A stretch of DNA of 64,000 nucleotides from Pegea sp. RAD2-039 (Eukaryota; Chordata; Thaliacea; Salpida; Salpidae). A program made the position numbers and the translations under genes. The stretch is from assembly GCA_034620365.1 (NCBI GenBank), contig JAQGEQ010000037.1:310001-374000 (forward strand), written 5' to 3'. Within the stretch, counting starts at the first letter, position 1. Each line of letters begins with the position of its first letter. Shown in pieces: positions 24,812-63,560 of this stretch. The notes under the pieces are model-generated. The model made no database searches. It was given only the letters and a program-made list of their open reading frames with translations, and was not told the origin of the DNA.

Positions 24812-26720
24812 AACAAGAGTAAACGGATTTTTGATGGAATGTTTTGTCTTCTACTTCAACAGTTAATAACTATTTCTATCTGAAGAATACTTAACACAAC
24901 TCTTTGTCACATTCTATTATCAAAGTATTTTAGGAGACTATTAAAGACTTTCTCGCTTTACTTGTCAAATTTAGAATGTATTGTGTTAAAACTATACTCA
25001 AGAAATAAATGATTATTTTCATTTATTTAGTTATTTCTAATGCAGAAAGAGACATGGCTACAAATAACAAATGATATAGAAAACATAACACAGTATAACC
25101 GCAGTAAAAACAAAAATAAAATGTTTGAATGGCACAACTCAAAAGATATAAGGATAGTTACAGAATCTGATATTGTGTTATTAAAAAACTGATTATTAAA
25201 GTATTTAATCAGAATAATTTTCAGCAACTAAACTCTGAGAACAAAAATTGTGGTCGATAAGGAAATCTTTAAAGTTGAATAAAGAAGAACTGTTAACTAT
25301 TGTATACAATAATATTAGATTTGACACCGAATCGACCTCTGAATATTTGTCAAGTTTTAAGATTAAGGTTTGATAGATAATCCACTCTCTAACAACACTC
25401 TGAAGGGAGGAAAAGTCCCCAAATTTGTAAGAAAGCTATCATTACTCCTATTCATCAAAAGGGTCCATGATAAGACAGTACAACAAACCAATTTCGTTGA
25501 CTTCAGTTATCAGCAGAACTGAAGAACTTATTATTCACAATCATACGAGCAGTCATTTGATGGAATACCATCTAATATCAGATGTCCAGCATGGTCTTGG
25601 GAAAATAAGATCTTCCTTGAATCAACATCTCACTCTTCATAAAGAGCTTACAGTTCATTATGAAAGTAAGACTCCTTGTGACATCATATATCTCTGTTTT
25701 GTAAAGTGCTTGATTCTGTCTCACATAACAATCTCATTATTATTTTACAAAAATTAAAAATCACCAGATTTATCATAAGGTGGATTGAAGATTACTTATT
25801 ACATAGAATCCAACAACCTCCTGTTAATAGATGTTTATCTACTCTTAGTTAAATCACCAGTTATGCTCCTCAGGGTTCTGTTCTAGGTACCCTTCTCTTT
25901 TGAACTTTCGTTGAAGAATTTTTCAGAAGACTAGCAGCAGTAGATGATGTCGGTGTGTTTGTGTATGCAGATGAAATCAAGATATGTTTTTTTGTAATCC
26001 CTTAAAACTTCAAACGGCACTATGGACTTCAGAAAACTGGTCTATGTTCTGGCTTATATTCCATTAATGGATTTACTATTCCACGAGAATCTTCGCTTAA
26101 GAAAACCGCTGCATTTCTTAGCTATTTGACTTTACATGGCATATTTATGTTTTCAATATCTTTGGTAAATCTATTAATCTTGTCGACCTTATATTATTTA
26201 TGTTTAATTCTTAAGATCTCTACTTTTTATCAATCTTTTCAATGTGTATGTACGTCTATTTCTTGAATACAATGGCACTGCAGAGATGTTATATCAAGCT
26301 GGTCAAATCAAGAAAACCGAATCTATTCAAGATACATTTGCGAGATAGTTTGCAGGAGAATTAAAATTAAATACAATAGTTATAAACATTGTGTCAGTTT
26401 CTCCAATTTAGATACTTTGGAATTTCGACAAATTATATACGAATTAATTATTATGTTTTAAAATGTCTCCAGGTTAGTTTGCTTTCATTTTGAAGATTTC
26501 TTTTCCATTAGTCCATTCTTCAAGATTATCAGCTTAAATCCCCTGGTGCGTTGGTCTGAGCAAATTTTTACTTATTCGGCACAATAAGTACTTGGAGCCA
26601 ACTGCTATCCGAAATTGTCAAGTCAGAACCAATAATGCTGTTATGATTTAATGTAAATGTAACGATTTTACTGGTATAATATTGATTCAGCTAAAATTGT
26701 TTTGAAAAGTATTTTATCAA
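24812..26720 (+). mobile_element. Degraded CR1/Jockey-like LINE in array unit 2
   Basis: Readable reverse-transcriptase pieces on the plus strand include QYNKPISLTSVISRTEE, DVQHGLGKIRSSLNQH and SKTPCDIIYLCF (25.47-25.72 kb). A YADE-like remnant occurs near 25970 where active elements have YADD. Many stops and deletions; inactive. Confidence 0.75.
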
Positions 26721-27177
26721 TAAATTTAAACCAAGAAACGAATAAACTCATTTGGTTAATTATTTTAGCTAACAAGTAATTATATTTGTTTAAAAAAATT
26801 TGAGTTAAATCACTTTAAATATTAAAAGAATAACTTTATATTGCTTCAACGATTATTCCATCTTCATAGAATTATTTCAAGTATCGTTTGAGATAAAACT
26901 TCAGAATATATTCAAAAATGGTGAAGACAGAGCTGGGATTAAAATATGTAGAGGAAAGACTTGTAAAAAGTTTGACTGTTAACGAAATTGTGTTTTTTTT
27001 TATCGAAAAACTTCAAGTTTATATTAATAACTTAAAAGGTCAAGTTATAGAGCACGTTTCGATTGTTTTATTTGAATATTGTTTTTAGAAAATCTTAAGG
27101 CTTACTGAAAAAACTAATTGATAATTTTTGCATTAAGTTGTAGGATTTATTTTTGAGAAGATCAGTTCTTTGTAGTT

Positions 27178-28013
27178 ATGTTGAAAATGACAGGGAGTTC
27201 TGTGCATAAAAGAAAAATGAAAAAGAACCAACTAAGAAGTGAAAAAATGTTATCGAACTATTTCAATTCAGTCAAAGATGGGACAGAGCACTGCAAATTC
27301 TGTTTCTTGCCTTTCTCTGACAAAAACAGGTAAAAGAAATTAATCATCATCATTTTTATGCTTTTAAAAGGTCATCTTTAAGCCTCTTACGACACAAATG
27401 TCCCGCTAATAAGAGATCGAATCGTTACAAGTATTTTAAAGATGAAGCTGATGAGCAAATCACTTCTAGGTTTGTATATCATAATGTTGTTAAAAGCATT
27501 GTGGAATAAAACTTAAAAACCTTTAGAAGTGTTTACAAAGTCAAAGTCTTACACAAAGGAAAGCTTGGTGGGAGATATTTCAGGGCCCCTATAACTGACT
27601 TATTAGTTGTAAAAAGAGAAATAAAGTTTGTACAATTATCAATTTCAGTGATCAAAATAAATTAAAAAGTTTTCAAATTACTTTTAAATGATCTGTTTTT
27701 CAGCAACTCCGAGCAATCAATAAAACTACGTCAAGATTGTTGCAATCATACTGAAAACCCTTCTATTTCACTTAAAGTTAAAAGTATTAGAAGGAAACCA
27801 AGTAATATTTTGCCAACTCCATATTTAAAACCAAATAAAAAACTTTTTAAAGAGCAAAAAAGAACTCCAGCTCGTCAGCTACCAGTTGTCTTCAAGAAAG
27901 AATTAGAGGATAACCAGATTGACCAATTTAATGGAATATCTTTTCTGCAGCTACTTGATCCTCTTCAAGACCCTTATGCTTCACTTCGAGATTTTTTAAG
28001 ACTTCATCAATGA
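27178..28013 (+). CDS. Small zinc-finger protein, array copy 2 (3 exons, 186 aa)
   Basis: Exons 27178-27329, 27371-27469 and 27704-28013, with the same lengths (152, 99 and 310 nt) and phase-2 junctions as copy 1. All metal-binding positions of the C2HC-like finger are kept. Substitutions against copy 1 include Ala5 to Thr, Lys50 to Asn at the end of exon 1, and changes around QDCCNHTENPS in exon 3. The intron-2 sequence contains an in-frame TAA after KSIVE when read through, so correct splicing at AG|GTTTGTAT is required. The last 67 codons are identical in protein to copy 1. Confidence 0.75.
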
Positions 28014-31000
28014 GTTGACTAACGATTATTTTTTAGTTAATTAAATCTGATATGCATTAGTAGCGTTTTCACAAGTTGTGTTTTTATTATTTTTTGTTTA
28101 CTGCTAAATTTATAATTTTGTTCCGTTTAAAGTAGTAGAAAAATAAATTTTATCTTCAAAATTGTTTTTTTAATAATTTAATTTAGATGCAGTTTACCAT
28201 TAATAACTCAGTTATAATAATAAGAAATAAATTTTCTAATATTGGTTCTTGTTGTTCACATAGACATCTTCTGAAGCTACGTTTGAGTTTAGCACTGATA
28301 ATGTCATCTAAGCAGTGAAAGAAAGGCAAAAAAGTTTTAGTTATAAAATTAAATTTTCATATTTCCAATTTAGAAAGCTTTTGATGACTGGCTCAAGAAC
28401 GATTAAAGTATTTGTTGAATGAGGAGCAAAAAGAAAAATACATCATCAGCCGTCCTTGTCTTTACCTTAAGGATTTTTTCAAGTACTTTCATTATCATCA
28501 ATTGGGACATATTAAAATAGATATTTAATATATGCCTAACAAAATTAAAAAATAGATAAAACCTTGAAAAAGATAGAAGTTATTAAATGCTACTCTTTAT
28601 AGCAGTACTAGAAAGTAAAACAGTGTCCAAAAATAACAACATTAGAAAAACATATAAAAACAAATCCTTTTACTCATAAGCTTCAAAACCACTTATTTTT
28701 TTTATTTATACAAATTGCTTTCCCTAAACAGGTAATTCCAACTTTCTATTTATTATCTAAATTAAATTAATATTTAATCAAGTAATCATTAAAATAAGGT
28801 TTACTTCGCCGTTATAAGAAAACAGATTTTTTTACATTATTTTAAATAAATACAATAATAAATAAAACTTTATGTTTCACATAATATATCTATAATAAAG
28901 TCTCAGAAAATACAAAACATACAGCGACAAGTAATTTCAATTTTTAAAAATTCGTATAATTATGATACCTTGAACGAACTTTTGTTAACCAGATAACTTG
29001 TTTATCATTTATAAAAGCTAAAGAGTAATGAAAACCTAGATATGATGCTTATAAAACAACACCAAATAAAGTATTGCTTAGATATGGATTATTTTGAATT
29101 GTATTTAAATAATTCTTTAACTTGTTGTTGAAGATTGACTTTTAATTGAAAATATCTGAAAAAAGATTAAATATTTTACTTTACAAAAATACAAATATAA
29201 AATTGGAAAATAAAATCCTGTTTAAAAATAATCATCTAAAAACTTTTTTTTACAAAAATAAACCATGAAAATTTATTACAACATTTTTAGACAGTTACCT
29301 GGTAAATCGTATACCAATATTTTGAAACTAATTCTTAAATTAAAAAAAACAATTTCAACCACAACTTGCTTTTGAGAAATCTTACTGTTTTCAGTTTGTT
29401 TATATTTTTTACAAATTTATGTAACTTAAATGGTAATTCCTTGTTCTTTTATCTAAAGTACTGTGTAAAAATTTGATTTATTAAAAAAAACAATTTGTTT
29501 GTTAAGTGAACAGAATGTTATTTCTATTTCTGGAAAATCATTAAAATGTTTGTTAGATTTGATAGTTTCCTATTACCTTCTGAAAAATTATTAACATTTG
29601 CTAAAATAATTAAAACATAATATACTTAATTTTCAGCCTAAATTAAAACAAATTTAAAACCAAATTTCAAAATTTCGTTAAATTATATAAGAAAAAAGCT
29701 TTTGTAAAGTATTATTTCTTGTGGTAATGTTATTCTAATTCAAGCAAACTTTTAAAAACGGTCTATTATAAAACAGCCTGTTTCTACATTTTATCAAATT
29801 CTTAGCACAAGCATAAGTTTTGTAAGAAGTCGAAATTGTGACTGTTTAAGACTTTTAATTTTGAATATATCATCGTGTTTTGAAAACTAGATTTTGAAAA
29901 ATTCTTGAAAAATATTCAAAAATTGTTACTGATTTTACACCTAAAATCACTAATAAAATTATGATTGAAAAAAACATATTAGATAATACTCCTTATAAAC
30001 GTTTTATTATTTCATTTCAAATATTTTTCATTTATTTTAAATATTTCGATTCAGTCATATTATTTGTAAATTCAATTTTGTTACATTCAACTATTTTCTT
30101 TTTACTTGCTTTTAATAGTTTAAAATTTATATTTTGTTATTTCGCAATATTTTGTTTTTATAGTTCTTTTCCTCTTTTCTCTCGTAAATTGTTTATTTAA
30201 AAAAAACAATTACATAAAAATATTATTCTCTTGACGATTTAAAACTGTTTGAGCAGTGTTAAGAACTGTTATTAGCTATTGGTAACAAAATTCTTTTAAC
30301 ATAATTCTTTTTAATGAAAAGACTTTTTTCTTAGGCCTTGTTTTTTTTTCAATCAGGTAACTTGCTAGAAGTCTAAATTATTTTATCCAAAAAATTAATT
30401 AGTTCACTGGATAGTTTTGTAAAAAGTCTCTTTTTCTATCTGGTTTTAAAAAAATTCTTTGCTCAGTTTATCGTGTAGTTTTTCTGTAGAAAAAAATTTG
30501 TTAATAATTCTATTAGAATTAAGCAAAGAAATTTGCACAATTTTAAAGTTTTGTTTTAATTACTTGGCTTGTAAAAAAGTATACCATATAAATGAGTTTA
30601 GTTAATATAGATGTTGGTAGCTTGAATAGTCTAACTTCCAATAAATTTGGTTATAAAGTTTTCAGAAAGTCATAATTGGTTTAATTGATTTGAGTAAAAA
30701 GATCATCTAAATCTCAATCAGGCACAAAATGTAATAAGTACCATAAAAGGTATTCCGTCATCAAATGGTTTATTGTGTCTTACTATAAAAAGAATTAGTT
30801 TTTTCTATTATAAATTGGTTTATAGATTTTACTTTTTTATATGGCTTTTTGTATTTTTCATTGAATACAGTGTTTTTTTCAGTAAAAACGTTTTGATTAA
30901 GTTAGGTTTGTTGTTGTTGCTTTTACTTACTATAAAAACATTCTCTTCTGGTTTCAACATCTAAAACCTAAAAATATTTATTCAATACTTTAAACATTAT

Positions 31001-31277
31001 TCAAACTTTTTTTTTTTCTAAATAACAAAAGTCAAAATGTTTTATTTGCTTACAATCGCTTAGCATAAACAAAGAGTTTTTTTCTTAGGTTTACCCAGAT
31101 ACAAAAAAAATATTTAAAAAAACTCTTTATACTACAAGTTAAAAAGCATACAATCTTTTAATTTCTTCTTAAGAATATTTAATTTAATTTTTATTCTATT
31201 TTCAGACTTTAAGAGCCGTACAAAGTTATTTTAATTTTTTGACTGTCTCTTTTTTGTTTGAGCTTTAAGCTTTAGAT
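28014..31277. other. AT-rich spacer between the two zinc-finger genes, unit 2
   Basis: Counterpart of 19759-23029 with high similarity. The hydrophobic frame at 29961 differs in length and sequence from its unit 1 counterpart, so it is not under coding constraint. The acceptor-like ATTTTCAG before the 413-aa gene is conserved at about 31206. Confidence 0.5.
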
Positions 31278-32519
31278 ATGGCAGAACCTGAAGATGAAAC
31301 CGCTAATCATGAATTTCTGAATAATCAACGGAATCTTTCCTCAAATGCTGCTAATCATTCTAATCAACCTCCAAGAACCGATGCTACAACTCATCAACCT
31401 GTGTCATTTGAGAATGATACCGGTATGAGAGATATACTTGGATTCCAACAAACCGTAGAAAGCCTAAATAATGGGGATTATTCAGTAGCTGGGACCAGCT
31501 TTGAAAATCCATTTGGTTTACTAAGTTACTCTTCTGCTTACCCAGTAACAAATAGTAGTTATGCTGCTATGCAACCTTCTTATGCTGGCTTCCAATATCC
31601 AGCTTATACAAGTTTCCTAACCGGTAGACTCAATCAACTCTCGCCTCAAAATCATTTGTACAGTCAAGAAAACATTTTGGGGTCTTTGAGAAGTCAATGG
31701 CTTCACCAAACTCAAAACATGTTTGAACGGCTGAGAGATGATTTAAGACAGAGTAACCAAGTTGAAGATGGTAGAATTAATCATCTTCACAATCAAGTTC
31801 TGAATAATCAACGAAATACTTTTACACCTTTTCTAGAACAACCTCAACTAAGCCACCTTTATCAATCTCTTCAAGATCAATATTCCAACTTGCAATCAGT
31901 AGCTTCTACATCTGGTAATAATATCACATCTACAGCGAATCATCATCAAGCTGAGAGTAATCATAGCAATCAAATGTCTTCGACAACTTCAGCGAGCTAC
32001 TCAACACCTCAGCAGAGTCATGGGCAAATCGGATTGTCTGGAATTCCTAATAATCTAGCTTATGCTCCTTTCCAAGCAAGCCATACTCGACACCATTTTC
32101 GTCCATATCCAATTTATAGTCCTAGAAAAGAGTTTCTGAGAAACTTAAGTCGTGATCAATTAGAAAGCATGGTTGAGGAATTGCATGATCGAAACCACTT
32201 CCTAGCTGCTACTTCAAATCATGGCTTTCAACTTCATCAATACCTAATGAAGGAAGCTGTGAATACGATGCAGGATTCTGAGCGATCTGTTGATTTTAGA
32301 AGCTACACTGGACCTCCTAGAGAAGATGGTAAAGTTGAATGTGTCCCTTGTAAGAAGCTTTTCTCCTGTAGATCTACAGCCTTGGTTCACATTAAATCAA
32401 CCCATATGGGATTTGTCTACAGCTGTCCAGTATGTGGCGAGACATTCAACAGGAAGCTCACGAGAGATCGACATCTTAATAATCCAAATATTCATCCTCG
32501 TAATCCTCCAACGAATTAA
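31278..32519 (+). CDS. C2H2 zinc-finger protein, array copy 2 (413 aa)
   Basis: Same length and architecture as copy 1: a long Asn/Gln/Ser-rich region, then two C-terminal C2H2 fingers with all eight ligands intact. I count about 14 amino-acid differences, including Ile13Phe, Val-to-Glu in SNQVEDGR, and a cluster NTMQDSERSVDFRSYTGP just before finger 1. No frame disruption. Keeping two full-length frames while the surrounding spacer accumulates indels suggests both copies are, or were until recently, under selection. Function remains unknown, as for copy 1. An AATAAA signal lies downstream of the stop as in unit 1. Confidence 0.85.
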   Translation: MAEPEDETANHEFLNNQRNLSSNAANHSNQPPRTDATTHQPVSFENDTGMRDILGFQQTVESLNNGDYSVAGTSFENPFGLLSYSSAYPVTNSSYAAMQPSYAGFQYPAYTSFLTGRLNQLSPQNHLYSQENILGSLRSQWLHQTQNMFERLRDDLRQSNQVEDGRINHLHNQVLNNQRNTFTPFLEQPQLSHLYQSLQDQYSNLQSVASTSGNNITSTANHHQAESNHSNQMSSTTSASYSTPQQSHGQIGLSGIPNNLAYAPFQASHTRHHFRPYPIYSPRKEFLRNLSRDQLESMVEELHDRNHFLAATSNHGFQLHQYLMKEAVNTMQDSERSVDFRSYTGPPREDGKVECVPCKKLFSCRSTALVHIKSTHMGFVYSCPVCGETFNRKLTRDRHLNNPNIHPRNPPTN

Positions 32520-33062
32520 GACTCAATTACGAAAAAGTTTCGCTCTTCTGAGATTATAATTAAACGATCTTTTTCTGATGATCTTTAAGTCTTTTGAAAT
32601 GATTAGTTCTTTTGAGTTCGTTTTTCTAAATAAAAACATTCTCAAAATTTTAATAAAGGATAAATGTTGTTTTGGTATGTTTTATCTTTGCATAGTATTG
32701 AATAAATTAAATTGAAATGCTTATAACAACGCTTTGTTAAACATAAGTTGTTATAAATAAAATCTTTAGTTAAATGCAAGTTTAAGTTATTTAAAACTAA
32801 ACATTTGTCATTTTTTCATCATTTCTTAGAACATAACAAAAAAAACTTAATCTGACATAAAACTCAAATTAATTCTTGTCTAGAAATGGTTAAACTAAAT
32901 TTTTAGACTTTAAAACATTACTTTAAGTTATAACAGTCTGTTTGTTATACATTTTTTAGTGATAATTTTAAAAAGTGGTATTTTTAATCATTAAATACAA
33001 ACAAACAATTTTTATATATAATCTTAATAAGTTTTTTACATGTTTGTTTTAACTTAAAAGGA
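32520..33062. other. 3' flank of the 413-aa gene, unit 2
   Basis: AT-rich tail matching 24272-24811, with AATAAA-type signals shortly after the stop. No gene seen. Confidence 0.4.
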
Positions 33063-34980
33063 AACATAAGTAAACGGATTTATATTGAAATGTTTTGTCT
33101 TCAACTTCAACAGTTAATAAGTATTTTTTTCTGAAGATCATTTAACACAACTCCTTCTCACATTTTAATATCAAAGTAATTTAGGAGACTATTGAAGACT
33201 TTCTCGCTTAACTTATCAAATTTAGAATGTGTTGTGTTAAAACTATGCTCAAGAAATAAATGATTATTTTTATTTGTTTAGTTATTTTTAATGCCAAATG
33301 AGACATGGCTACAAATAACAAATGATATAGAAAACATAACACAGTATAACCGCAGTAAAAAGAAAAATAAAATGTTTGAATGCCACAACTCATAAGATTT
33401 AAGGACAGTAACAGAATTTGATATTGATTTATAAAGTAGTTGCTTATTAAAGTATTTAATCAGAATAATTTTCAGCAACTAAACTCTGAGCAGAAAAATT
33501 GTGGTCGATAACGAAATCGTTAAAGTTGAATAAAGAAGAACTATTAACTATTGTATACACTAATACTAGATTTGACACAGAATCGACCTCAGAATGTTTG
33601 TCGAGTTTTAATATTAAGGTTTGATACATAATCCACTATCTAACAACACTCCGAGAGGAAGAAAAGTACCCAAGTTTGTGAGAAATCTATCATTACTCCT
33701 GTTCATGAAAAGAGACCTAGAAACACAACACTTAGCTACAAACCAATTTCGTTGACTTCAGTTGTCTGCAGAACTGAAGAACATATCATTCAAAATCATA
33801 TAAACAGTCATTTGATGGAGCACCATTTACTATCTGATGTCCAGCATGGTCTTGGGAAAAAGAGATCTTCCCTGAATCAACATCTCACTCTTCATAATGA
33901 GCTTACAGTTCATTATGAAAGTAATACTCCTTGTGACATCATATATCTCTGTTTTGTAAAGTGCTTGATTCTGTCCCATATAACAATCTCATTATTTTTT
34001 TACAAAATTTAAAAATCACAAGATTTATCATAAAGTGGATTGAAGATTACTTATTACGTAGAATCCAACAACTTCCTGTTAAAAGATGTTTATCTACTCT
34101 TAGTTAAATCACTAGTTATGCTCCTCAGAGTTCTGTTCTAGGTACCTTTCTCTTTTTAACTTTCGTTGAAGAATTTTTCAGAAGACTAGCAGCAGTAGAT
34201 GATGTCGGTGTGTTTGTGTATGCAGATGAAATCAAGATATGTTTTTTTGTAATCCTTTAAAACTTCAAACGGCACTATGGACTTTAGAAAACTGGTCTAT
34301 GTTCTGGCTTATATTCCATTAATGGATTTACTATTCCACGAGAATCTTCGCTTATAAACCGCTGCATTTCTTTACTATTTGACTTTACATGGCATATTTA
34401 TGTTTTCAATATCTATGGTAAATCTATTAATCTTGTCGAACTTATATTATTTATGTTTACTTCTTAAGATCTTTACATTTTATCAATCTTTTCAATGTGT
34501 ACGTACGTCTAATTCTTGAATACAATGGCACTGCAGAGATGTTATATCAAGCTGGTCAAATCAAGAAAACCGAATCTATTCAAGATACATTTGCGAGATA
34601 GTTTGCAGGAGAATTAAAATTAAATACAATAGTTATAAACATTGTGTCAGTTTCTCCAATTTAGATACTTTGGAATTTCGACAAATTATATACGAATTAA
34701 TTATTATGTTTTAAAATGTCTCCTGGTTAGTTTGCTTTCATTTTGAAGATTTCTTTTCCATTAGTCCATTCTTCAAGATTATCAGCTTAAATCCCCTGGT
34801 GCGTTGGTCTGAGCAAATTTTTACTTATTCGGCACAATAAGTACTTGGAGCCAACTGCTATCCGAAATTGTCAAGTCAGAACCAACAATGCTGTTATGAT
34901 TTAATGTAAATGTAACGATTTTACTGGTATAATATTGATTCAGCTAAAATTGTTTTGAAAAGTATTTTATCAATAAATTT
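33063..34980 (+). mobile_element. Degraded CR1/Jockey-like LINE in array unit 3
   Basis: Near copy of the unit 2 LINE remnant. Reverse-transcriptase pieces include NSHLMEHHLLSDVQHGLGKK and SNTPCDIIYLCF at 33.75-34.0 kb. Stops and frameshifts throughout. Confidence 0.75.
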
Positions 34981-35432
34981 AAACCAAGAAACGAATAAAC
35001 TCATTTGGTTAATTATTTTAGCTAACAAGTAATTATATTTGTTTAAAAAAATTTGAGTTAAATCACTTTAAATATTAAAAGAATATCTTTATATTACTTC
35101 AACGATTATTCCATCTTCATAGAATTATTTCAAGTATCGTTTGAGATAAAACTTCAGAATATATTCAAAAATGGTGAAGACAGAGCTGGGATTAAAATAT
35201 GTAGAGGAAAGACTTGTAAAAAGTTTGAATGTTAACACAATTGTCTTTTTTTTGTATCTAAAAAACTGCAAGTTCATATTAATAACTTAAAAGGTCAAGT
35301 TATAGAGCACGTTTCGATTGTTTTATTTGAATATTGTTTTTAGAAAATCTTAAGGCTTACTGAAAAAACTAATTGATAATTTTTGCATTAAGTTGTAGGA
35401 TTTATTTTTGAGAAGATCAGTTCTTTGTAGTT

Positions 35433-36267
35433 ATGTTGAAAATGACAGGGAGTTCTGTGCATAAAAGAAAAATGAAAAAGAACCAACTAAGAAGTGAAAA
35501 AATGTTATCAAACTATTTCAATTCAGTCAAAGATGGGATAGAGCACTGCAAATTCTGTTTCTTGCCTTTCTCTGACAAAAAGAGGTAAAACTACTTAATC
35601 ATCATCATTTTTATGCTTTTAAAAGGTCATCTTTAAGCCTCTTACGACACAAATGTCCCGCTAATAAGAGATCGAATCGTTACAAGTATCATAAAGATGA
35701 AGCTGATGAGCAAGTCACTTCTCGGTTTGTATATCATAATGTTGTTAAAAGCATTGTGAAATAAAACTTAAAAACCTTTAGAAGTGTTTACAAAGTCAAA
35801 GTCTTACACAAAGGAAAGCTTGGTGGGAGATATTTCAGGGCCCCTATAACAGATCTGTTAGTTGTAAAAAGAGAAATAAAGTTTGTACAACAACGAATTT
35901 CAGCGATCAAAATAAATTGCAAGGTTTCCAAATTACTTTTAAATGATCTGTTTTCAGCAACTCCGAGCAATCAATAAAACTGCGTCAAGATTGTTGCAAT
36001 CATGCTGAAAACCATTTTATTTCACTTAAAGTTAAAAGTATTAGAAGGAAACCAAGTAATATTTTGCCAACTCCATATTTAAAACCAATTAAAAAACTTT
36101 TTAAAGAGCAAAAAAGAACTCCAGCTCGTCAGCTACCAGTTGTTTTCAAGAAAGAATTGGAGGATAACCAGGTTGACCAGTTTAATGGAATATCTTTTCT
36201 GCAGCTACTTGATCCTCTTCAAGACCCTTATGCTTCACTTCGAGATTTTTTAAGATTTCATCAATGA
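35433..36267 (+). CDS. Small zinc-finger protein, array copy 3 (3 exons, 186 aa)
   Basis: Exons 35433-35584, 35626-35724 and 35958-36267, again 152, 99 and 310 nt with phase-2 junctions. The exon-2 donor is CG|GTTTGT instead of AG|GTTTGT, which changes the junction codon from Ser to Arg and slightly weakens the donor. All C2HC-like ligands are kept (the finger reads HCKFCFLPFSDKKR then LLRHKC). Differences in exon 3 include PIKKLF for PNKKLF and RFHQ for RLHQ at the end. It is intact although its partner 413-aa gene in this unit is destroyed. Confidence 0.72.
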
Positions 36268-37620
36268 GTTGACCAACGGTTATTTCTTAGTTAATTAAAT
36301 CTGATATGCATTAGTAGCGTTCTTACAAGTTGTCTTTTATCATTTTTTGTTTACTGCTAAATTTATAATTTTGTTCGGTTTAAAGTAGTAGATACATAAA
36401 ATTTTTCTTCAGAATTCTTTTTTTTAAATATTTAATTTAGACACAGTGTACCATAAATAATTGGTTTTAATAATAACACAATAAATTTTCTAACACTGGT
36501 TCTTGATGTTCGATAAACATCTTCTTAAGCTACGTTTAAGTTTAGCACTGACAATGTCATCTTAGAATTGTAAGAAAGGGAAAAAAGTTTTAGTTATAAA
36601 ATTAGATTTTCATATTTCCAATTTAGAAGGCTTTTGATAACTGGCTCAATAACGATTAAAGGATCTGTTACATGAGGAGCAAAAAGACAAATGCATCATC
36701 AGCCGTCCTTGTCTTTACTTTAAGCATAGTTTAAAGTACTTTCAACACCAGCAATTGGGAGATATTAAAATAGATATTTAATTTATGCATAACGAAAATA
36801 GAAGAAAATATGAGAGCTTGAAAAAATAGAAGATAATAAAAACCAATCTTAATAGCAATACTAGAAAGTAAAACAGTGTCCAATAATAACAACATTAGAA
36901 AAACATATAAAAATAAATCCTTTTACTCATAAGCTTGAAGACCACTTAATTATTTTATATTTATACAAGGTGCTTTCCATAAGCAGGTAATTCCAACTTT
37001 CTATTTATTATCTAAATTAAATTAATATTTAATCAAGTAATCATTAAAATAAAGTTTACTTCGCTATTATAAGAAAACAGATTTTTTTACATTATTTTAA
37101 ATAAATACAAAAATAAATAAACTTTATGTTTAAAGCAAATAAGTCTAAAATAAAGTCTCAGAAATTGCAAGACGTACAGCGACAAGTTACTTCGTTTTTT
37201 AAAAATTCGTATAATTATGTTAGCTTGAACGAACTTTTTGCTAACCAGATAAACTGTTTATCATTTATTAAAGCTAAAGAATAATGAAAACCTAGATATG
37301 ATACTTATAAAACAACACCAAATAAAGTATTGCTTAGATTTGAATTATTTTGAATTGCATTTAAACAATTTTTTAACTTGTTGTTGAAGATTGACTTTTA
37401 ATTGAAAATATCTGAAAAAAGATTAAATATTTTACTTTACAAAAATACAAAAAAAAAATTGGAAATAAAATCCTGTTTAAAAATAATAATTTAAAAACCT
37501 TTTATTACAAAAATAAACCATGAAAATTTATAACAACATATTTAGACAGTTACCTGGTAAATCGTTTACCAATATTTTGAAACTAATTCTTAAATTTCGA
37601 AAAACAATTTCAACCATATC
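36268..37620. other. AT-rich spacer, unit 3
   Basis: Matches the first third of the unit 1 and unit 2 spacers with many more substitutions. No gene seen. Confidence 0.4.
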
Positions 37621-37827
37621 TTGAAAAATGTATGTGGTAAAGTTGAATGTGTCCCTTGTAAGAAGCTGTTCTCCTGTAGATCTACTGCCTTGGTTCACAT
37701 TAAATCAATCCATATGGGATTTTTCTACAGCTGTCCAGTGTGTGGCGAGACATTCAACAGGAAGCTCACGAGAGATCGACATCTCAATAATCCAAATATT
37801 CACCCTCGTAATCCTCTAACGAAATAA
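37621..37827 (+). pseudogene. Zinc-finger remnant of the 413-aa gene, array copy 3
   Basis: Only the last 60 or so codons survive: both C2H2 fingers with all ligands (VPCKKLFSCRSTALVHIKSI and SCPVCGETFNRKLTRDRH). They are joined upstream to unrelated spacer, so the whole N-terminal region is gone. Changes include STH to SIH just before finger 1's last His and PPTN to PLTK at the end. A TTG/ATG-containing frame could still encode a 68-aa finger-only peptide. A product is possible but I see no promoter for it. Confidence 0.8.
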
Positions 37828-38400
37828 GAAATCATGAAAAAGTTTCGCCCTTCTGAGATTTTAATTAGACGATCTTTTTCTGATGATATTTAAGTCTTGT
37901 GAAATGATTAGTTCTTTTGAGTTCGTTTTTCTAAATGGAAGATAAAACCTTATTCTTTGCAAAAATACAAAATAAAATTTGGAAATAAAATCCTTTTTCA
38001 AAATAATCCACTAAGAACCTTTTAATACAAAAATTAGCTTGAAAATTTTTAACAAAAATTTTACACAGTTACCTGGTAGATCATAAACCAATATTTTGTA
38101 ACTAATTCTAAAATTTGAAAAAACGATTTCCACAAAAACTTACTTTTATGAAATCTAACTGTTTTCATTTTGTTTACATTTTGTAGGAACTTATGTTACT
38201 TAACTGGTAATACCTTATTTTATTTTTCGAGAATTCTTCTCTATAAAAATTTGATTTATTAGAATTAATAAAGTTTCCTTGTTAAGTGAATAGATAGTTA
38301 AATAAGGAAAATCATTAAAATGTTTGTTACGTTTGATTGTTTGCTATTACCCTTTGAAAAATTATTATCACTTCCTAAAATATTTAAAACATAAGATACT

Positions 38401-39450
38401 TTTGAATATTGCATTTCACTCATTGTTAACTGGGCTGAAATAACTCAAAATCAATTAACGATACGTTTTGATGACTCACATGATTGAAGTTTCCTGTTTT
38501 AATTATGTGATGTTTCTGGCACGTGCGAACATCATAATATGCACATATGTAAATTTATACTCCTTGTTACAACATATGCTTCAATTTTGTTGCAGCGTTT
38601 ATTTTTGTCCTACACAACCGACTGATCACTTAATTGAAAAACTTAGAAATTAACATCTTTATCTTAAAGTGGATTGAAGACTATTTATCAATTTGATCCT
38701 TTTGGTACTGTATGAGTCTAGAAAAGATCGTAAAAGCTGCAAAAGACATCTTATTGCTATAATTACAATTCTTGGCTATAAATTGCTGGTTATTTAGTAA
38801 AGTTGCGCTGCTGGTACCAGGAAAAAGAATTTTCTTTTTGATTTACTAGCTAAGGGTTTATATATACTATACTGGGTAATGTTGTATTTAAGTAAGCATT
38901 AAGTTTTACTAGAAGGTCAAAAGTACGTTTGTAAATAACTACGTCTGTAAATAATACTGAATATTTGTCAGAATGTCATTATTTTAGAGAACTTAACAAG
39001 AAACATAAAGCCTTGTAAACGTTTTTTTGCTTTAACTTTCAGATTAATTTGTGTATAGATGTGGTTAAACTAAATTTGTATACTTAAAAACAGTACTTTA
39101 GGTTATAAAGTTCTGTTTGTTTTTGCATTTTTAAGTGAAATCTTTAAACAAAACATTCTCTGAGGCCAATCATTTTAGTTAAAAATGTTGTTTGTTAAGT
39201 TCCGTGGTCTCAAAATTTGGACCCGTTTGCTTCAGTTATTCCAAAATAAAATATAGAAATTGTAAGTTTTTTCTGTTTTATAAAAAACCGCTTAAACCAA
39301 AGTTCAGAAATAGTATGACAAATCAAATGCAAACGATAGTGGTTAATAACAATTAATTATTACTTATTAGGAATTCTAATTTAGGTTTTATCTAAAACTT
39401 TTTAAATAGCAATCAAATATATGTTGGTACTATATTACTCATATTATTGA
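38401..39450. repeat. Dispersed block R1, copy 1, with LINE debris
   Basis: Matches 44020-44660 in the same orientation: shared landmarks are ACATGATTGAAGTTTCC and TTAAGTTCCGTGGTCTCAAAATTTGGACCCG (39197 and 44423). Within it, about 38570-38700 contains a reverse-transcriptase relic (AAAGTGGATTGAAGACTATTTA) that is absent from the second copy. No gene. Confidence 0.7.
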
Positions 39451-40300
39451 ATTTTCAATCATTGCTATGACTAAGTAATTAACATCAAAAAACCCTTTAT
39501 AACTTAGTTTATTAGCTTATAACATGAGCCTAATGCAATTATTATTAAAAATAAAATAAAAACAAACATTTAACTTAAAGTAGTATCTAAGTATAAATGA
39601 AATGTTGAGTTGTCATCGGTTCTCCGGTAGATTAAAATCTACTTCTTTGTTACAAATTTAAAAAATGCTGTTACAAATTTGCCCTTATGTACACCATCAG
39701 TCGTGTGTACTCTGTCATTTGCTTTTAAAATTGCGTTGTTCTGTCAGTTAATTTGATTGATTATCAATTACAGTACAGAACTTTTCAGTAGAGATATATC
39801 TAAATTAATTAAAAAATTATTAAGATAATTGACGTTAATCTTTTGGAAAATTCATAACTTCTGCTTAATTGTTCTTCGTTAAAAGGTTATCTGTTAATAT
39901 AAAACAGTTGTTATACTATTATGAAATTTGGTAAGGTCTTAAAGATATACAGAGAGGGTTTAATTTTTATGAATATCAGATGACATTTAACAAAGCAATC
40001 TCTAACGATATCTGCTTTCAAAATTATCAAAATAACATTATTTTGCATATAGAATCAATTGTTTAAAAACAATAAATAATAAATCTCTAAAAACCACTTG
40101 TTTAATAAATTTTTTTTAATTTCCTGTAAATTATTAAAAGTAAACATACTTTCAACTTTCAAAGTAAATAAATCCTATAAGATTTTTAAATAATAGTAGT
40201 AATAACACTTTACTTTTAAGAGTATTTTAATGCTAAATCAAACGCTATAGAATAAAGATCACACAACAATTTATATACATACAAAAGTAAAATTGTTTAA
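39451..40300. repeat. 3' flank of CAF1, duplicated with the gene
   Basis: Non-coding sequence downstream of the CAF1 gene that is also found at 59370-60220 (GTTGAGTTGTCATCGGTTCTCCGGTAGATT and GCCCTTATGTACACCATCAGTCGTGTGTACTC occur in both). The conserved higher-complexity stretch 39600-39740 may hold the 3' UTR or a further element; nothing more can be said. Confidence 0.7.
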
Positions 40301-41584
40301 CTAATAATAACAATGTTTGCCATTTGTAAAACAAAATGAATCATAACCAGCAATCTTCAACTCATGTGCTTGTATTTGATCGTTTCCAAAGAGATGATAC
40401 ATCTGTCAAAAATAAAATCTAAATTAAATTACGTTTTAATTTTTCAGGTAAAATATTTCAATATATAAAGAGTTTATATAGTAAGCATCAAATTAATTTG
40501 TATAGATTCCTTATATTTATGCAAGTATGCTTACATCACGTGCGGCAAAAAATGTTCTTCCTGCCAAATTGCTATCACTTCCAGCTGAATGTGAAGTACC
40601 AATCCGAGAGACATTTAATTCATCAGCTAGTCTTTGTAATCCATACCCTTTACGCTAAAATTTTAACTAATTGTTAAAAATCATGATATATTTTGCAGAG
40701 ATGAGAAACTTACATTATCATCGTGTAAAAGCATGTACTTCAAATCAATTATCTTTCCAAAAATAGAACGAATTAGGATTTGTGACTCCTCTCTACTGGC
40801 CGGAAGTGATCTTGCAATGGCTTTCAACAGGAAAAAAATGTCGTATTGCCTGGTAAAATTTGCAAATTTATTTTGTTAGCTTAGCTTCCTTGTATATATT
40901 ATGGGATTAAACTAATAACCAATTAATTAAACAAATTAAAATATACATACCCATGGAACACTATAAATGTGTTTAAATCATTGTAGAAAAGCTTTGCCTC
41001 AACAGCATATTTTCTAAAGTCTTCAATATCTACTCCAATAGCTGGAAGCACAGCAAAATTAATTCCGCCATTTTTTTGAAGAAACTCTATGGACTTTTGG
41101 CAGCTTGCATCTTGTCTGTACAAGCATTAAGAAATTTAATGGTTTTGATTCTACAACATTTACATTAAAATTTATGTAAATCATTTCCTACATACCTGAT
41201 GTTGAACCGGAAATTAAAATTCCAACAACATACAGGTGTTGCCAATTCACCCTTTTCGTTCATTAAAGTGATTCCTAATTGTATTAACTTAACAGCATCA
41301 ACATTTTTCTTAATGTACAGATATTTTTCTTCCGGGGCTAAGAATTTAGGTTCTTTGAATATAGCGCCGGGAAACTCCGTGTCCTAAAAATAAAAGACTT
41401 GTATAGATCCTTAAATTTAAATTTTTTTAAAATTACAAATAGTTATCAATAATTAGAAACTTACAATTGAGATGACTTTATATGTCATTAAAGCAAGCTT
41501 TATCTGGGCGAATGCTTGCTTTAAATTCATTTGATAAACCTCAACAGTATGGTGCTGTTGCGAGACAGGTATGCTAAAACTCAT
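40301..41584 (-). CDS. CNOT7: CAF1/Pop2 (CNOT7/8-type) deadenylase, six exons, 276 aa
   Basis: Catalytic 3'-5' poly(A) exonuclease of the CCR4-NOT complex, which shortens mRNA tails in the cytoplasm. Exons on the minus strand are 41465-41584, 41196-41383, 40951-41115, 40714-40849, 40535-40654 and 40301-40402 (120, 188, 165, 136, 120 and 102 nt). All junctions are GT..AG and in phase, giving 277 codons with the stop. Introns are 59-132 nt. The family is about 285 aa, so this is full length. The DEDDh active site is complete: DTEFPG (first Asp and Glu) opens exon 2; QYDIFFLLKA supplies the second Asp in exon 4; SHSAGSDSN supplies the His and last Asp in exon 5. Other family landmarks are VDAVKLIQLGITLMNEKGEL, CCWNFNFRFN, FHG and IIDLKYML. 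The N-terminus VEVYQMNLKQAFAQIKLAL matches the usual helix before DTEFPG. A partial paralogue lies at 60.2-61.3 kb. Confidence 0.93.
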
Positions 41585-42109
41585 TTTCAGTTTTTTAAAA
41601 CACAATTCCTAGAAATTAAAGTTTTCAGCTTAATAATTATAATATCTCAATAATTTTTTGAAGTAAGCTCTACAAGTCTATTTAGATATGCAGTCAGAAG
41701 TAACAACAAAATATTAGAAAAAAGCTTCTATATCTACTAATGGCTAATCTTCTTAATTTGAAAATAACTAACTTTACAAGCATATAAAAATACCATAATA
41801 ACAAAAATTGCTAAGTTTTTCTCAAAAAATATGTTACAAAACTAACCAAGCCGGCAGTTACTTATAAATATATCAAAACTATACTCTCAAAAGAACCTTT
41901 CTCTTTTTATTCTCTCTTAGTCACGTGTTTATTCTACAGTGACATTTACTTACTTATGGAAAGTATTGATTGGGCAACAATCCTTTAATTTTACAAAACC
42001 TAATGTATTTTATTCTTTTAAATAAGAAATATTTGATTATCTATAAAAAAAAGTTTGATCAATCTTTGAATTATTAATTATTCAATCATTGATTCATTTA
42101 AATAATTAA
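41585..42109. other. 5' flank of CAF1
   Basis: AT-rich DNA upstream of the CAF1 start codon, presumably with its promoter. No core promoter motif is evident. It is not duplicated at the second CAF1 locus. Confidence 0.35.
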
Positions 42110-46787: not shown

Positions 46788-49731
46788 ATGGAGTCTACTG
46801 CTGACCGCAAATCTTATGTGAAAAAACATGTCAATAAAAGTAAGTTTTAGACAAAATTTATTTGTCCTAGATATTAACCACTTTTTATTAGCTAACAAGG
46901 ATGAAAAACCAAAATGTGAGGTCTGTCAAGATCTAATTAAACCCAAAGGTGTCAAGAAAAACAAAGTTGTCCGTAAAGGCAAGCACTACGGAGTGATTTG
47001 CTGCGAAGCATGCAAATGCTTTTTCTGGCGAACTGTTAAATCCAGTAAAACTTACATTTGTAAGTATACCAAGAATTGTGCTCTAAGAGATTTAGGAAAA
47101 TGCCAGTATTGTCGCTTTAAAACTTGTCTTGAAGTAGGAATGAATATGAAAGGTGAGTTTACTAAATAATTTTTCTTTTGTCATTTTTTATATAAAATTT
47201 GACAGGCATTCAAGATGGCAGAAAGCCAGGTGGACGAAATCCTGATGTTATAGCTGTGATTGTAAGTTATTTTTTTACAGTTGATTTCTTAAAACGACTT
47301 TATTTCTTTAGAAGCCAAAACATATTAGAAACAAGATTTTAATGGGGGAAATGTGGGGTGATGATGAACTTAATAATGAAAGGGTAAGTAGTTATAACAA
47401 TCATGAAAGTTTAAATAACATTTTCACGTTAAAAGGAAAATAATTTGGAAGAAATTTCAAATGAAAATCCTTCATCAAGCAATCAGCTAGATGAACCAAT
47501 TCATACACAATTATCAACTGATCCTTCCAATGAAAATAAAACAGAATCTAATAGTTCTACCGAACTCAAATGCAAACGAAAAACAACCCAGGAGAGCCAA
47601 CAAAAAAAGAATGTTCCAACCAATTCCAGTCAACAAAACGGTAAATCCATCTTTGTTTAAAATCTATATATGTATTGGTTTTTACTTATTTGTTGTTTTA
47701 CTTTTGGCAGAATAGTTTTGATTATTATCAATTTTTTTTTGTGTTTTTGTCATTTCTTGAAAGAATTTCGATTGAGCTATGTAACTATGAAACTGGTAAA
47801 ACAGCAAAATTATTCTGCTATTTAACTTGCAAACTAAATTGGTTTTCAACATTAAAGAACTATACTTAATTTTGTAATCTCTTCATTTCGTTTATAAACT
47901 AAAAAAATTAAATTTATTAGTTTGTTCAAAAACTAATGTATTTTTTTTATAATTCAATGCTTTTCATTGAATCATGAACTTTATCTAAAATGTCTGTTTA
48001 GTTAAGAAAAAATCAAATGACAATTTAGACCATTTTCCAGATCTTTGCGATGAAACTAGAAGCGAATCACAGACTGATGAACAATGTCAAGTAAGAAAAA
48101 ATTTTCAATAAATGGTCAGGTCTAATGAAAATTATTCAGGTTGAAAGCCCACCAAACGTAGAAAATACCGCTGGCGACTGTCAAAATTCAAATGTAGATG
48201 TTGACTCAAGCTCATTCTCTGATGAAGAATGTAAGTTTTAAAAATAGAGAAGTCTCAAGTAAATATTGATATATTGAGACTCCAAAATGTTATCTTTAAG
48301 ATTTTAATTAAAAGTATTGATGTTATATTTTACCGGTAACTTTTCTTTGTAAGGTTAAGAAATATCCTTAGAGTTCATTATTAATAGTTAATTAAAAATT
48401 TTGTTTTCAGCAATTACTGGTTTTTTTATAATGATACCATCAATTATTTAGATAAAATATACTGTATAATTTATTCTGCGGTAGTACTATTTATTTAGCT
48501 AACTCTAATAACAAAGATTATATACTTTTGTAACTTTTTTGTTAGTTTACTTTTTCTAACTAATCTTTTTATAACTGTAAAAAGAAAAATTATATTTCTT
48601 ATCATTAAGCTTGCTTGTACTCTTATTGCAATTTAAGTAACAACAAAAATTCTCAATTTTTTTAACTAGTCAGAAATGAATTTTCTGAATTGATTGAGTG
48701 TTGGGATAAACATAGAGTAAAGCAGAGGATTGGTGAACAATATCAAGTAATTTATAATTTACTGTATTTGAGCAATTACTAAAATATATTTGTAGATTAC
48801 CAATTTACCAGAGATTAACAGAACTTTTGAAGAAGTTGAGTTGTCAAAGCTAACTTTTGACTCGAAGCGTTTATCTGATGAAGATGGTAGGTTTTTTCAA
48901 AGATGGACATTTGTAATAGTTAATAAATTAAAACTCAAAAGTATTAACCTGTAATTAATAAATAAGATTTTTAAATTTAAAATATGTTTTTATTAAGTTT
49001 GTTGAAACAATAGTTCACCAGCAATGACAATTTTAATATTCTATTTTTTTTAAGCAAAACATTTTATATCCACTTGCTCTGAACAAAATCCAACAAGTGA
49101 TGGTAAGAAAAATCATTCAGAAATTTTCTATGAGGAAGCATTTGAAGTCTTATCTAAAAATGACTATAACGTTAAAAAGGTAAATGATAAAATACATAAA
49201 TATTAACAATTCACTTGTTTCTTATTTGGTTTACATTCCCAATAAATGTTAAAGTCTTACAATTTGACAATTAAAAAAATATATTTTGAAATTCTTCCGA
49301 TTTTATTCTAAAGCTTAACCTATGATTTTATTTTAAGGCTTTTGAAACTTATTCTATCAAGCAAAAAAATACTCCTTTTATGGAAAATTGGAGCATCAAT
49401 GATCGTAAAATGTTTGTAAGGGGTTTCCGTAAACACAAAAAGAATTTCATGAATATACAGAAGGACTATGTTAGTAAATTCATTAGCTATATCCTTTTTA
49501 TTTTTTGAGTCAACTGTAAACAATTTAATCCATTTTGAATACTTTTAGAAAAAAAAGAAATTACTTTTTGTGATTGTTATTAAGATTACATAAATATCTA
49601 ATATATTTATAACTTTACTTATACAGCTCAAAGACAAAACAGTTAAAGAAGTCGTCCAATTTTATTATCGTTGGAAGAAAAATCGCCGATGTCGAAGATC
49701 TAGCGTGAGGATATCCAGAAGGAATCGATAA
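46788..49731 (+). CDS. Nuclear-receptor DNA-binding domain fused to ELM2-end/SANT module (12 exons, 451 aa)
   Basis: Exons: 46788-46839, 46892-47152, 47206-47261, 47312-47383, 47436-47640, 48002-48090, 48140-48230, 48670-48746, 48796-48886, 49055-49179, 49338-49469, 49627-49731. All introns are GT..AG (49-439 nt) and the phases join into one 452-codon frame. Residues 26-116 are a C4 nuclear-receptor DNA-binding domain: CEVC, HYGVICCEACKCFFWR, YICKYTKNC, GKCQYCRFKTC, then the extension DGRKPGGRN, which resembles NR5/NR6 (FTZ-F1/GCNF) receptors. Residues 117-350 are acidic, Ser/Asn-rich and probably disordered. About 352-381 (YEEAFEVLSKNDYNVKKAF) looks like the last helices of an ELM2 domain. 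Residues 389-444 are a SANT domain of the MIER/CoREST/MIDEAS type (NWSINDRKMFVRGFRKHKKN, IQKDY, DKTVKEVVQFYYRWKK). The tail is basic. No ligand-binding domain follows. In known proteins ELM2-SANT recruits HDAC1/2, so a DNA-bound repressor is inferred. The alternative is two adjacent genes, but I saw no AATAAA in the long introns 5 and 7. Confidence 0.75.
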
Positions 49732-50870: not shown

Positions 50871-51037
50871 ATTTAATTTTTTTATTTTTCCCTAAAACTT
50901 GTTTATGTTAGTCCAGATTTTCAATAGCTTACGAATCAAGATGATCTTATTAAGATCATGGGTCCGTGCATCAGAAAGGATTATTTTAATTTTATGAAAT
51001 AAAAATTTCTACAAAAAATGGTAAATCACAATTTCAG

Positions 51038-51364
51038 TCAAATTTGTTTGTTTTACGAACAACCAAGAAAAGAAAGGCAAATGATATGTGTGAAAAAGCT
51101 GACAAAATTTACTCTATTAGTAGTGAGAGCTGTAGCAATTTTTCACTTGATCTTAATGAGGATACTGACATAAACGAGATTGATGAAAGTACTGATGAAA
51201 ATGATTTTATAGATTTTTTAGAGGGAGATCAAAGCAAAAATCAGCAAGATTTTCACAGAAAATTCAAGCAAAAGTTTGATCGCTGTGAGCGATTAAGAAG
51301 ACAAGAACAGCTACAAAATTCTGAACATTCTGAGGCAGATTTAAACTTAAGTGATAAAAAATAG
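51038..51364 (+). CDS. Probable terminal exon of an unknown acidic protein
   Basis: A frame open from a possible splice acceptor (ATTTCAG ending at 51037) to TAG at 51364 encodes about 108 residues. It starts SNLFVLRTTKKRKANDMCEK, then has a Ser-rich segment, an acidic run (DLNEDTDINEIDESTDENDF) and a charged helical stretch that may form a coiled coil (FHRKFKQKFDRCERLRRQEQ). No ATG lies in frame near the 5' end except an internal one at codon 16 (51083), so upstream exons are expected or translation starts there. Composition differs clearly from the surrounding AT-rich DNA, which argues for real coding sequence. I do not recognise the family; a nuclear role is only a guess from the basic start and acidic middle. 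Confidence 0.45.
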   Translation, partial: SNLFVLRTTKKRKANDMCEKADKIYSISSESCSNFSLDLNEDTDINEIDESTDENDFIDFLEGDQSKNQQDFHRKFKQKFDRCERLRRQEQLQNSEHSEADLNLSDKK

Positions 51365-62050: not shown

Positions 62051-63560
62051 CTCTTTCTCTTTCCTACTCCGACATTCTTTCAAATGTATCTGAGATGGTG
62101 GATATGAAAAACTACTTCCTCTCTATCACTACCTCCATCGCTACTCTTTAACATGACTATTAGGCGAAGAAGAGCTCCTTAAATTTGCACGAAAACTATT
62201 ATTACTCCAATTCATAAAGAGGGTCCCAGACACACTTTACTTAACTACAGACCAGTTTCGTTGACTTCAGTTCCTTGCAGAACTCCAGAACATATCATTC
62301 ACAACCTAATGACCAGTCATATGATGGAGCACCATCTAATATCTGATATCCAGCATGGCTTTGTAAGGAGGAGACTTTCCCTGACTCATCATCTTACTTT
62401 TCTTAATGATCTTACAGTCCATTGTGAAAGTAATACTCCCTGTGGCATCATATACCTCGATTTTGCTAAATCTTTTGATTCAGTCCCACACAATAAGCTC
62501 ATTACTGTATAAAAAACCGAAAAATCAACAACTTTATCTTAGTGGATTGAAGATTACATTTTAGGTAAAAACCAACAAACTCGTGTAGAAAGATCTTTAT
62601 CTACTCCTAATCAAATCACCAGTGGTGTTCCTCAGGATTCTGTTTGGGGTAAGTTTCACTTATTAATTTTGATTGAAGACCTCATCAGAAGATTATTAGC
62701 AGTAGATGATGTCAGTACGCTTGTGTATGCAGATGACATCAAGCTAGTATCTTGTAATCTTTCAAAACTTCAAACTGCACTAAACACTGTAGAAAACTGG
62801 TCTATGAAACTTGGCAGCTAAGAATCCAGCCAACATAGTGTGAACTTATCGCTATTTCTCGTAAACCAGCTTCAAATTTATTAATTAAAATTTCTTTATT
62901 GGATTCATTATTCCACAAATATCTTCGGTCCTAGACCTTGACATTACCCTGTCATCTGACATTCAACGGTGCACCTATATTTCTTAAATCATTGCAAAAT
63001 CAATCAACCTTGTTTATCTTATTGTAAAGATCTATAAAGGGCCCTAATGAGCCATACTTCTTTATCAATCTCTTCAAATTTAACGTAACTCCAATTCTTG
63101 AATACATTGTTAGTGTATGGATGCCATATCAAATTAGTGATGACAAAAAATCGAATCTGTTCAGGAAACATTTACGAGATTGGTATGCAGAAAGTTATTA
63201 TTAAATACGATAGTTTTAAACATCGTCCTGCTTGGTGGCGAAGCGGTTACTACACCTAGCTACAAGGTACATCTAGCTAGGAAGTACCGGGTTCGACCCC
63301 AAGTGGAGACATATAAAACTCCTGAGAAAAACCATACAAAACTCCTGAGAATGTGTGTTAGTGATATGTGCTCTCTTTAGGCACCCTCCTTCGCATTTAT
63401 ATATATAAAATAAAAAAAAAATAAAAAATCATCTCAGCTTCTTCAATTTAGATACTTTAGAAATTCAACGAATTAAAGACGACTTAAATCTTATTTTTAA
63501 AATTATCCACAATTTAATTGACCTTGAGTTTTATGGCTTCTTTTCTATTAGTCCTTCCTT
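62051..63560 (+). mobile_element. CR1/Jockey-like LINE remnant, interrupted by a SINE
   Basis: Plus-strand reverse-transcriptase sequence: YRPVSLTSVPCRTPEHIIHN, ISDIQHGFVRRRLSLTHHLT, PCGIIYLDFAKSFDSVPHNK (62.26-62.5 kb). Then a degraded GVPQ.SV motif, and LVYADDIKLVSCN with the YADD catalytic pair (62.72-62.76 kb). The C-terminal part is present near 63.1 kb and resumes after the SINE at 63431 (CAGCTTCTTCAATTTAGATAC, the HRLSFFNLDTLEI region). Several frameshifts; inactive. It is less decayed than the array copies. Confidence 0.8.
63217..63430 (+). mobile_element. tRNA-derived SINE sharing the LINE 3' tail
   Basis: The head has an A-box-like TGGTGGCGAAGCGGTTA and a B-box GGGTTCGACCCC, separated by about 40 bp that include the inverted repeat CCTAGCTA/TAGCTAGG. 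The 3' part (GAGAATGTGTGTTAGTGATA then GTGCTCTCTTTAGGCACC and CTCCTTCGCATTTAT) closely matches the 3' UTR of the LINE at 7.87-7.96 kb, followed by an A-rich tail. It splits the LINE reading frame cleanly between about 63217 and 63430. Confidence 0.75.

Follow-up and report, generated by a model that had tools for sequence, protein, structure and literature searches.

A candidate fusion of an NR6A1-type receptor DNA-binding domain to an ELM2-SANT corepressor module in the salp Pegea sp.

Can the DNA-reading half of a nuclear receptor be joined, within a single gene, to the core of a histone deacetylase corepressor? Receptors normally reach histone deacetylases via separate corepressors that exchange with ligand, and the known ELM2-SANT scaffolds of HDAC1/2 reach DNA via partner proteins or other domains. 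The question is raised by a gene on the forward strand at 46788-49731 of the window, by which we mean the whole 64,000-nucleotide stretch of Pegea sp. RAD2-039 DNA analysed here (C106:310001-374000 in our numbering of the contigs). The genome searched comprises 387 contigs and 105.7 Mb. Taking all parts of the reading together, we give a probability of roughly 60% to a fused NR6A1-type DNA-binding domain (DBD)/ELM2-SANT gene that is expressed as one mRNA and encodes a ligand-independent repressor recruiting HDAC1/2 directly.

The gene consists of 12 exons separated by 11 GT..AG introns (22 splice sites). As the original prediction had it, the exons join in phase into one frame, which runs over 451 codons plus a stop. 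They are listed below by position in the window, strand and content; the C65 copies and the loci L053 and L054 are described further on.

46788..46839, +, exon 1: start codon, residues 1-17 and the first base of codon 18; kept in all three C65 copies
46892..47152, +, exon 2: the two C4 zinc fingers, the first with a Lys-rich insert of 12 residues; P-box EACKC
47206..47261, +, exon 3: 56 nt; C-terminal extension GRKPGGRN
47312..47383, +, exon 4: NR6-type hinge motif KPKHIRNKILMGEMW
47436..47640, +, exon 5: Ser/Asn-rich linker
48002..48090, +, exon 6: with exon 7, an apparent diverged duplicate of exons 8-9
48140..48230, +, exon 7: 91 nt, the same length as exon 9
48670..48746, +, exon 8: putative ELM2 front, RIGEQYQ (residues 295-301)
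48796..48886, +, exon 9: ELM2 middle; 3' intron of phase 1, common to L053 and L054
49055..49179, +, exon 10: ELM2 C-terminal region EEAFEVLSKNDYNVKK
49338..49469, +, exon 11: ELM2 end and first part of SANT; 3' intron of phase 0, common to L053 and L054
49627..49731, +, exon 12: last part of SANT (FYYRWKK), basic tail and stop

Judged by eye, splice signals are weak at the intron 4 acceptor and at the donors of introns 8-11. An in-frame ATG at 46755, upstream of the modelled start, would add 11 residues (METGFYLITIV).

The receptor half is readily recognized. Pfam places zf-C4 at residues 46-102 (55.9 bits, cut-off 21.1), confirming the predicted C4 receptor domain, and its eight zinc ligands (C26, C29, C55, C58, C74, C80, C88 and C91) all align with those of 26 other DBD rows. 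When the whole protein is searched against PDB sequences, this half matches receptor DBDs, the best being NR6A1 (1.9e-17). In a tree of 27 DBDs, which includes 16 human rows and represents the window type by the window gene and two copies (L057, L058), these three fall in a 9-row group with human NR6A1, the salp's own NR6A1-like gene (L002, C42:329.7k) and four other DBDs of the same genome; its support of 90/93 lies below the tool's star level (95), and the long rows of an array unit and L029 are flagged as doubtful. The gene structure of L002, read by eye, is like that of the window gene in its phase-1 intron after GMNRK, the 56-nt exon encoding GGRN and the phase-0 intron that follows. The hinge of exon 4 (KPKHIRNKILMGEMW) aligns with that of L002 (EPPELIEEILTGKFW) at an ungapped score of 30, equalled by 1 of 20000 shuffles and compared with 9 at the next best place, and for the corresponding exons of C79 and the array the scores are 27 and 18 (6 and 8 of 20000 shuffles). 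The DBD half thus appears to derive from a duplicated receptor gene of the NR6A1 (GCNF) type.

No ligand-binding domain (LBD) is found by Pfam in the spliced protein, in keeping with what had been predicted. A profile search of the genome with PF00104 returned 23 matches, none of them on C106; this search is insensitive, since it also missed the LBD of the NR6A1-like gene on C42.

NR6-like DBD exons with an 87-residue open frame also occur in tandem every ~4.17 kb on C138, C150, C288, C291, C294 and C326 (among loci L009-L025 and L067). In the array units that were read (L009, L012 and L028), the downstream frame again carries a GGRN extension, and C326, C349 and C350, where DBDs of this kind occur, hold in addition copies or pieces of window positions 39444-41233. 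A link between these arrays and ELM2-SANT was rejected, as a tblastn search of one array locus, L067 (5.3 kb), with the window protein gave significant matches to the DBD only.

The window DBD differs from that of NR6A1, notably in the helix that reads DNA. The P-box reads EACKC for EGCKG, FFKR is replaced by FFWR, finger 1 holds a Lys-rich insert (12 residues in the window gene, 18 in L057), and finger 2 is two residues shorter. Since the recognition helix is altered, specificity may differ from that of NR6A1, and with the insert and the shortening, DNA binding may be changed or lost. A prediction of exon 2 alone by AlphaFold, run without an alignment, had a mean pLDDT of 48.4 and is uninformative. 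The same changes, together with a ratio of nonsynonymous to synonymous differences (pN/pS) in the DBD that reaches 0.72, are what speaks for a protein that no longer has sequence-specific DNA binding and that inhibits CoREST-type complexes or the parent receptor, as a decoy or by dimerising. We consider this unlikely, given that neither the window copy nor any of the three C65 copies (L057-L059) has lost one of the eight zinc ligands or the GGRN extension.

The C-terminal half points to a different family. In the PDB search with the whole protein, the C-terminus is matched to RCOR3 (9e-15), and with residues 275-451 as query 15 distinct chains are matched at E<=10, every one of them an ELM2-SANT or SANT chain of a corepressor, in the order RCOR3 (6.2e-16), RCOR1, MTA1/3, RERE, MIDEAS and NCoR1/2. 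On this result a Myb-type DNA-binding SANT was rejected; judged by sequence, the domain belongs to the HDAC-corepressor class and not to the DNA-binding Myb class. The predicted SANT is upheld by the 15 PDB sequence matches, but not by Pfam, where Myb (residues 389-434) scores 19.1 bits against a cut-off of 24.4. ELM2 has no Pfam match on the spliced protein, so that zf-C4 alone of the three profiles scores above its cut-off. No second SANT is detected by Pfam in the window frame.

The original prediction recognized only the end of an ELM2 domain. That end is present, but the description was incomplete, as exons 8-9 also seem to encode an ELM2 front (RIGEQYQITNLPEI, residues 295-308). The front aligns to RCOR3 with a local score of 46 (0 of 500 shuffles), marginally to RCOR1 and the salp's own CoREST-like genes (6, 6 and 10 of 500), and without significance to RERE, MTA1, MIER1 and MIDEAS (34, 130, 125 and 178 of 500). 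For the back of the domain, the counts are 1, 6 and 7 of 500 against MTA1, MIER1 and MIDEAS, and 49 and 33 of 500 against RCOR3 and RCOR1. Because the front is nearer RCOR3 and the back nearer MTA1/MIER1/MIDEAS, we assign the module to no single ELM2-SANT subfamily (RCOR, MTA, RERE and so on); in the ELM2-SANT tree, its grouping with RCOR is weak (68/78).

Four residues of the window protein, K408, Y430, Y431 and K434, align with K305, Y327, Y328 and K331 of MTA1. The ELM2 front QRIGEQYQITNL is one residue longer than the corresponding EIRVGxxYQAxI of MTA1. That MTA1 motif is described as sitting in the HDAC groove, and two lysines and two tyrosines of MTA1 as helping to form the inositol-phosphate pocket (PMC4244562).

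The genome also holds CoREST-like genes of its own, L053 and L052 on C264 and L054 on C40. Both ELM2 and Myb exceed their Pfam cut-offs in L053; in L054 Myb does, and ELM2 reaches 20.9 against a cut-off of 21.7. In the alignment, introns 9 (phase 1, in ELM2) and 11 (phase 0, in SANT) of the window gene fall at intron positions of L053 and L054, and introns 8 and 10 match none of theirs. By eye, the L052 locus, which runs into a minisatellite, has no second SANT exon.

Between the two halves, exons 6-7 seem to have arisen as a duplicate of exons 8-9 and to have diverged since. The protein score is 61 (0 of 1000 shuffles) and the global DNA score 146.5, compared with 117 for the best of 500 shuffles; the local DNA comparison with introns included is weaker (6 of 200). 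A direct comparison of exons 6-7 with ELM2-SANT proteins yields no clear match (29 of 500 shuffles at best), and exon 5 has no significant match to eight ELM2-SANT rows. If exons 6-7 are such a duplicate, the two parent genes were probably joined in or beside exon 5. Since introns of both parents are kept, the route would be duplication and not retroposition: two intron-bearing genes were likely joined by duplication and then copied in tandem.

How often does this structure recur? A tblastn search of the whole genome with the window protein gave 149 candidates, of which 94 were scored, and all copy counts are lower bounds. There are at least three further full copies on the minus strand of C65, at ~129.6-126.7k, 119.2-116.3k and 98.6-95.6k, and hence at least four intact copies including the window gene; at least two more copies consist of exons 8-12 only (C65:143.3-142.2k and C106:392.2-393.3k). 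Over 3.5 kb, the full C65 copies share 95.4-97.1% identity with the window. Exon lengths agree throughout the intact copies, with the single exception of exon 2 of L057, which has an in-frame insertion of 18 nt. Intron indels of 1-19 nt separate the window gene from the C65 copies. Of the six pairs that the intact copies form, five show intron indels, and the pair L058 and L059 shows none. Because each of the three further copies keeps the frame and 22/22 splice sites (66/66 in all), we take the gene structure to be more than chance. That C65 is merely the other allele of C106 is not favoured, short of proof: window positions 36000-38938 match C65 at 74-91% (40 of 508 candidates scored), and 38937-42000 at 97%.

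A second group of copies is decayed. On C43 (490-580k, L062-L066) we find at least five, at ~84% DNA identity, which miss residues 1-92 and carry a frame-shifting exon indel in 5/5 cases; of the 83 splice sites that could be tested, 13 depart from GT/AG, some of these lying at truncated ends. The C43 copies are pseudogenes. All five start at the DBD end and continue via the linker exons to ELM2-type exons, L066 despite a large deletion in its interior; exon 12 is reached in L062 and L065 alone. Because linked remains are present in the C43 copies, the DBD-ELM2 link would predate their split from the intact ones. Also on C43, a repeat of ~1055 bp abuts the break in the DBD exon, a copy of this repeat adjoins the broken end of L064, and exon-1 pieces lie downstream of two copies.

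We compared the four intact copies in six pairs by an uncorrected, Nei-Gojobori-style pN/pS. For the whole frame the ratio is 0.38-0.65, on small counts of 3-13 synonymous and 6-25 other differences per pair. It is 0.23-0.34 for ELM2-SANT in five pairs (the sixth has no changes and is undefined), 0.31-0.72 for the DBD and 0.36-1.19, on few changes, for the linker. The linker evolves fast: between the window gene and L058 or L059, exon 5 differs at 9 of 205 sites, as against 4 of 359 and 8 of 359 in intron 5. The family might be no more than a set of young, decaying duplicates without function, its intact members being merely recent, as the broken state of all five C43 copies found and the setting in repeat-rich tandem arrays would suggest. 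This is quite improbable in our judgement, as four copies have stayed intact over 451 codons despite intron differences of up to 5.2%, and exons 8-9 show zero differences in all six pairs, against 1-21 differing sites in the intron before them.

The copies also bear on whether the locus holds one gene or two. On a two-gene reading, an NR6-like DBD gene cut short after exon 4 or 5 would have been misjoined to an adjacent, separate ELM2-SANT gene. Introns 5 and 7 are indeed long (361 and 439 nt) and contain two ATTAAA sites each, and two copies are made up of exons 8-12 alone. Against this, the joined frame has no Met codon between residues 137 and 388, so that a separate downstream gene would have no ATG in these exons, and a frame read through into intron 5 ends at a stop after 6 codons, one read into intron 7 after 3. 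AATAAA is absent from both introns (introns 6, 9 and 10 carry one or two each), and the linker exons keep phase and all splice sites in the four intact copies. The exons-8-12 copies look relaxed, since they stop right after SANT and have a pN/pS of 0.78-0.97 relative to the window gene. We regard two genes as very improbable. The fusion proposed originally stands at the level of gene architecture, where a joined DBD and ELM2-SANT is well supported by the four intact copies, the linked remains in the five decayed ones and the lack of an internal in-frame start; all exons are predicted to form a single spliced mRNA. Misassembly was rejected because the same joined structure occurs at three further places, 2.9-4.6% different from the window.

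Other features surround the gene. Just downstream, 50990-51361 is an acidic open frame of 124 residues with no Pfam match at E<=0.01. Positions 17789-37623 form a tandem repeat of ~8.26 kb with 416-residue open frames at 23021-24268 and 31269-32516, both ending in C2H2-like fingers (zf-met, 21.6 bits against a cut-off of 21.2, for the latter); a shortened relative, L061:2743-3891, ends ~50 bp before the start of the exons-8-12 copy on C106. On the minus strand, 2799-4025 is a single open frame for an ESCO1/2-type cohesin acetyltransferase (Acetyltransf_13 91.8 bits, zf-C2H2_3 58.8 bits). Reverse-transcriptase fragments lie at 62183-62818 (RVT_1, 34.3 bits, plus another match at 29.5 bits against a cut-off of 29.6), with related DNA at 17011, 25384 and 33635.

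How does the predicted protein compare with known systems? Knirps-type receptors likewise have a receptor DBD without an LBD and act as repressors; their corepressors are recruited by way of short motifs, and they have no corepressor domain of their own. With CoREST (RCOR), MTA, MIER, RERE and MIDEAS, the window protein shares an ELM2-like front motif, the ELM2 C-terminal region and the Lys/Tyr of the SANT pocket, and with the salp's own CoREST-like genes L053 and L054 it shares two intron positions. In contrast to these proteins, its ELM2 is divergent, no second SANT is seen and a receptor DBD stands in front. To NR6A1 it is tied by the DBD group, two intron positions, the 56-nt extension exon and the hinge motif, and it is set apart by the P-box, the finger-1 insert, the finger-2 deletion, the lack of a detectable LBD and the attached ELM2-SANT. 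GCNF itself is described solely as a repressor, in a passage that does not extend to GCNF without its LBD; the same source gives its binding site as a DR0 or an extended half site and its partners as SMRT/N-CoR, DNMT3 and MBD proteins (PMC10909835). The 2DBD nuclear receptors have an EACK-type P-box, EACKK in their first DBD (PMC10497141). A 2DBD origin was rejected, as the P-box is similar but the tree and gene structure point to NR6; the window protein has one DBD, an NR6-type extension and no LBD that we could find.

A literature search for a protein with a receptor DBD and ELM2-SANT found none, a Brachionus survey (Kim et al. 2017) being outside its scope; one match for zf-C4 with ELM2 and SANT was set aside because the domain there is zf-C4HC4. 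A protein database search, with 2239 candidates and none at E<=0.001, is uninformative on novelty, because any animal receptor should have scored and the database evidently holds no usable ones. Both parts are known, and their combination appears to be new.

The domain content suggests how such a protein would work. A duplicated NR6A1 (GCNF)-type receptor would have lost its LBD and come to carry an ELM2-SANT module instead. The encoded protein would be nuclear and bind DNA through the receptor DBD, and the ELM2-SANT core would recruit HDAC1/2 directly, giving a ligand-independent repressor with an HDAC-recruiting core of its own. It is reasonable to infer that DNA targeting is here hard-wired to deacetylation. 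More tentatively, the family may represent a new class of transcription factor, in which the hormone-sensing half has been swapped for an HDAC corepressor core, and which has multiplied in tandem while its DNA-reading finger changed fast, so that one lineage spawned dedicated repressors.

As relatives of both halves are present in the same genome, the origin of the gene should be traceable exon by exon. A natural fusion of a receptor DBD to an HDAC-recruiting core, if true, would show that the corepressor exchange step can be dropped in evolution, as it is in engineered repressor fusions. The family would also offer a direct test of whether tethering an ELM2-SANT to DNA suffices by itself for repression in an animal.
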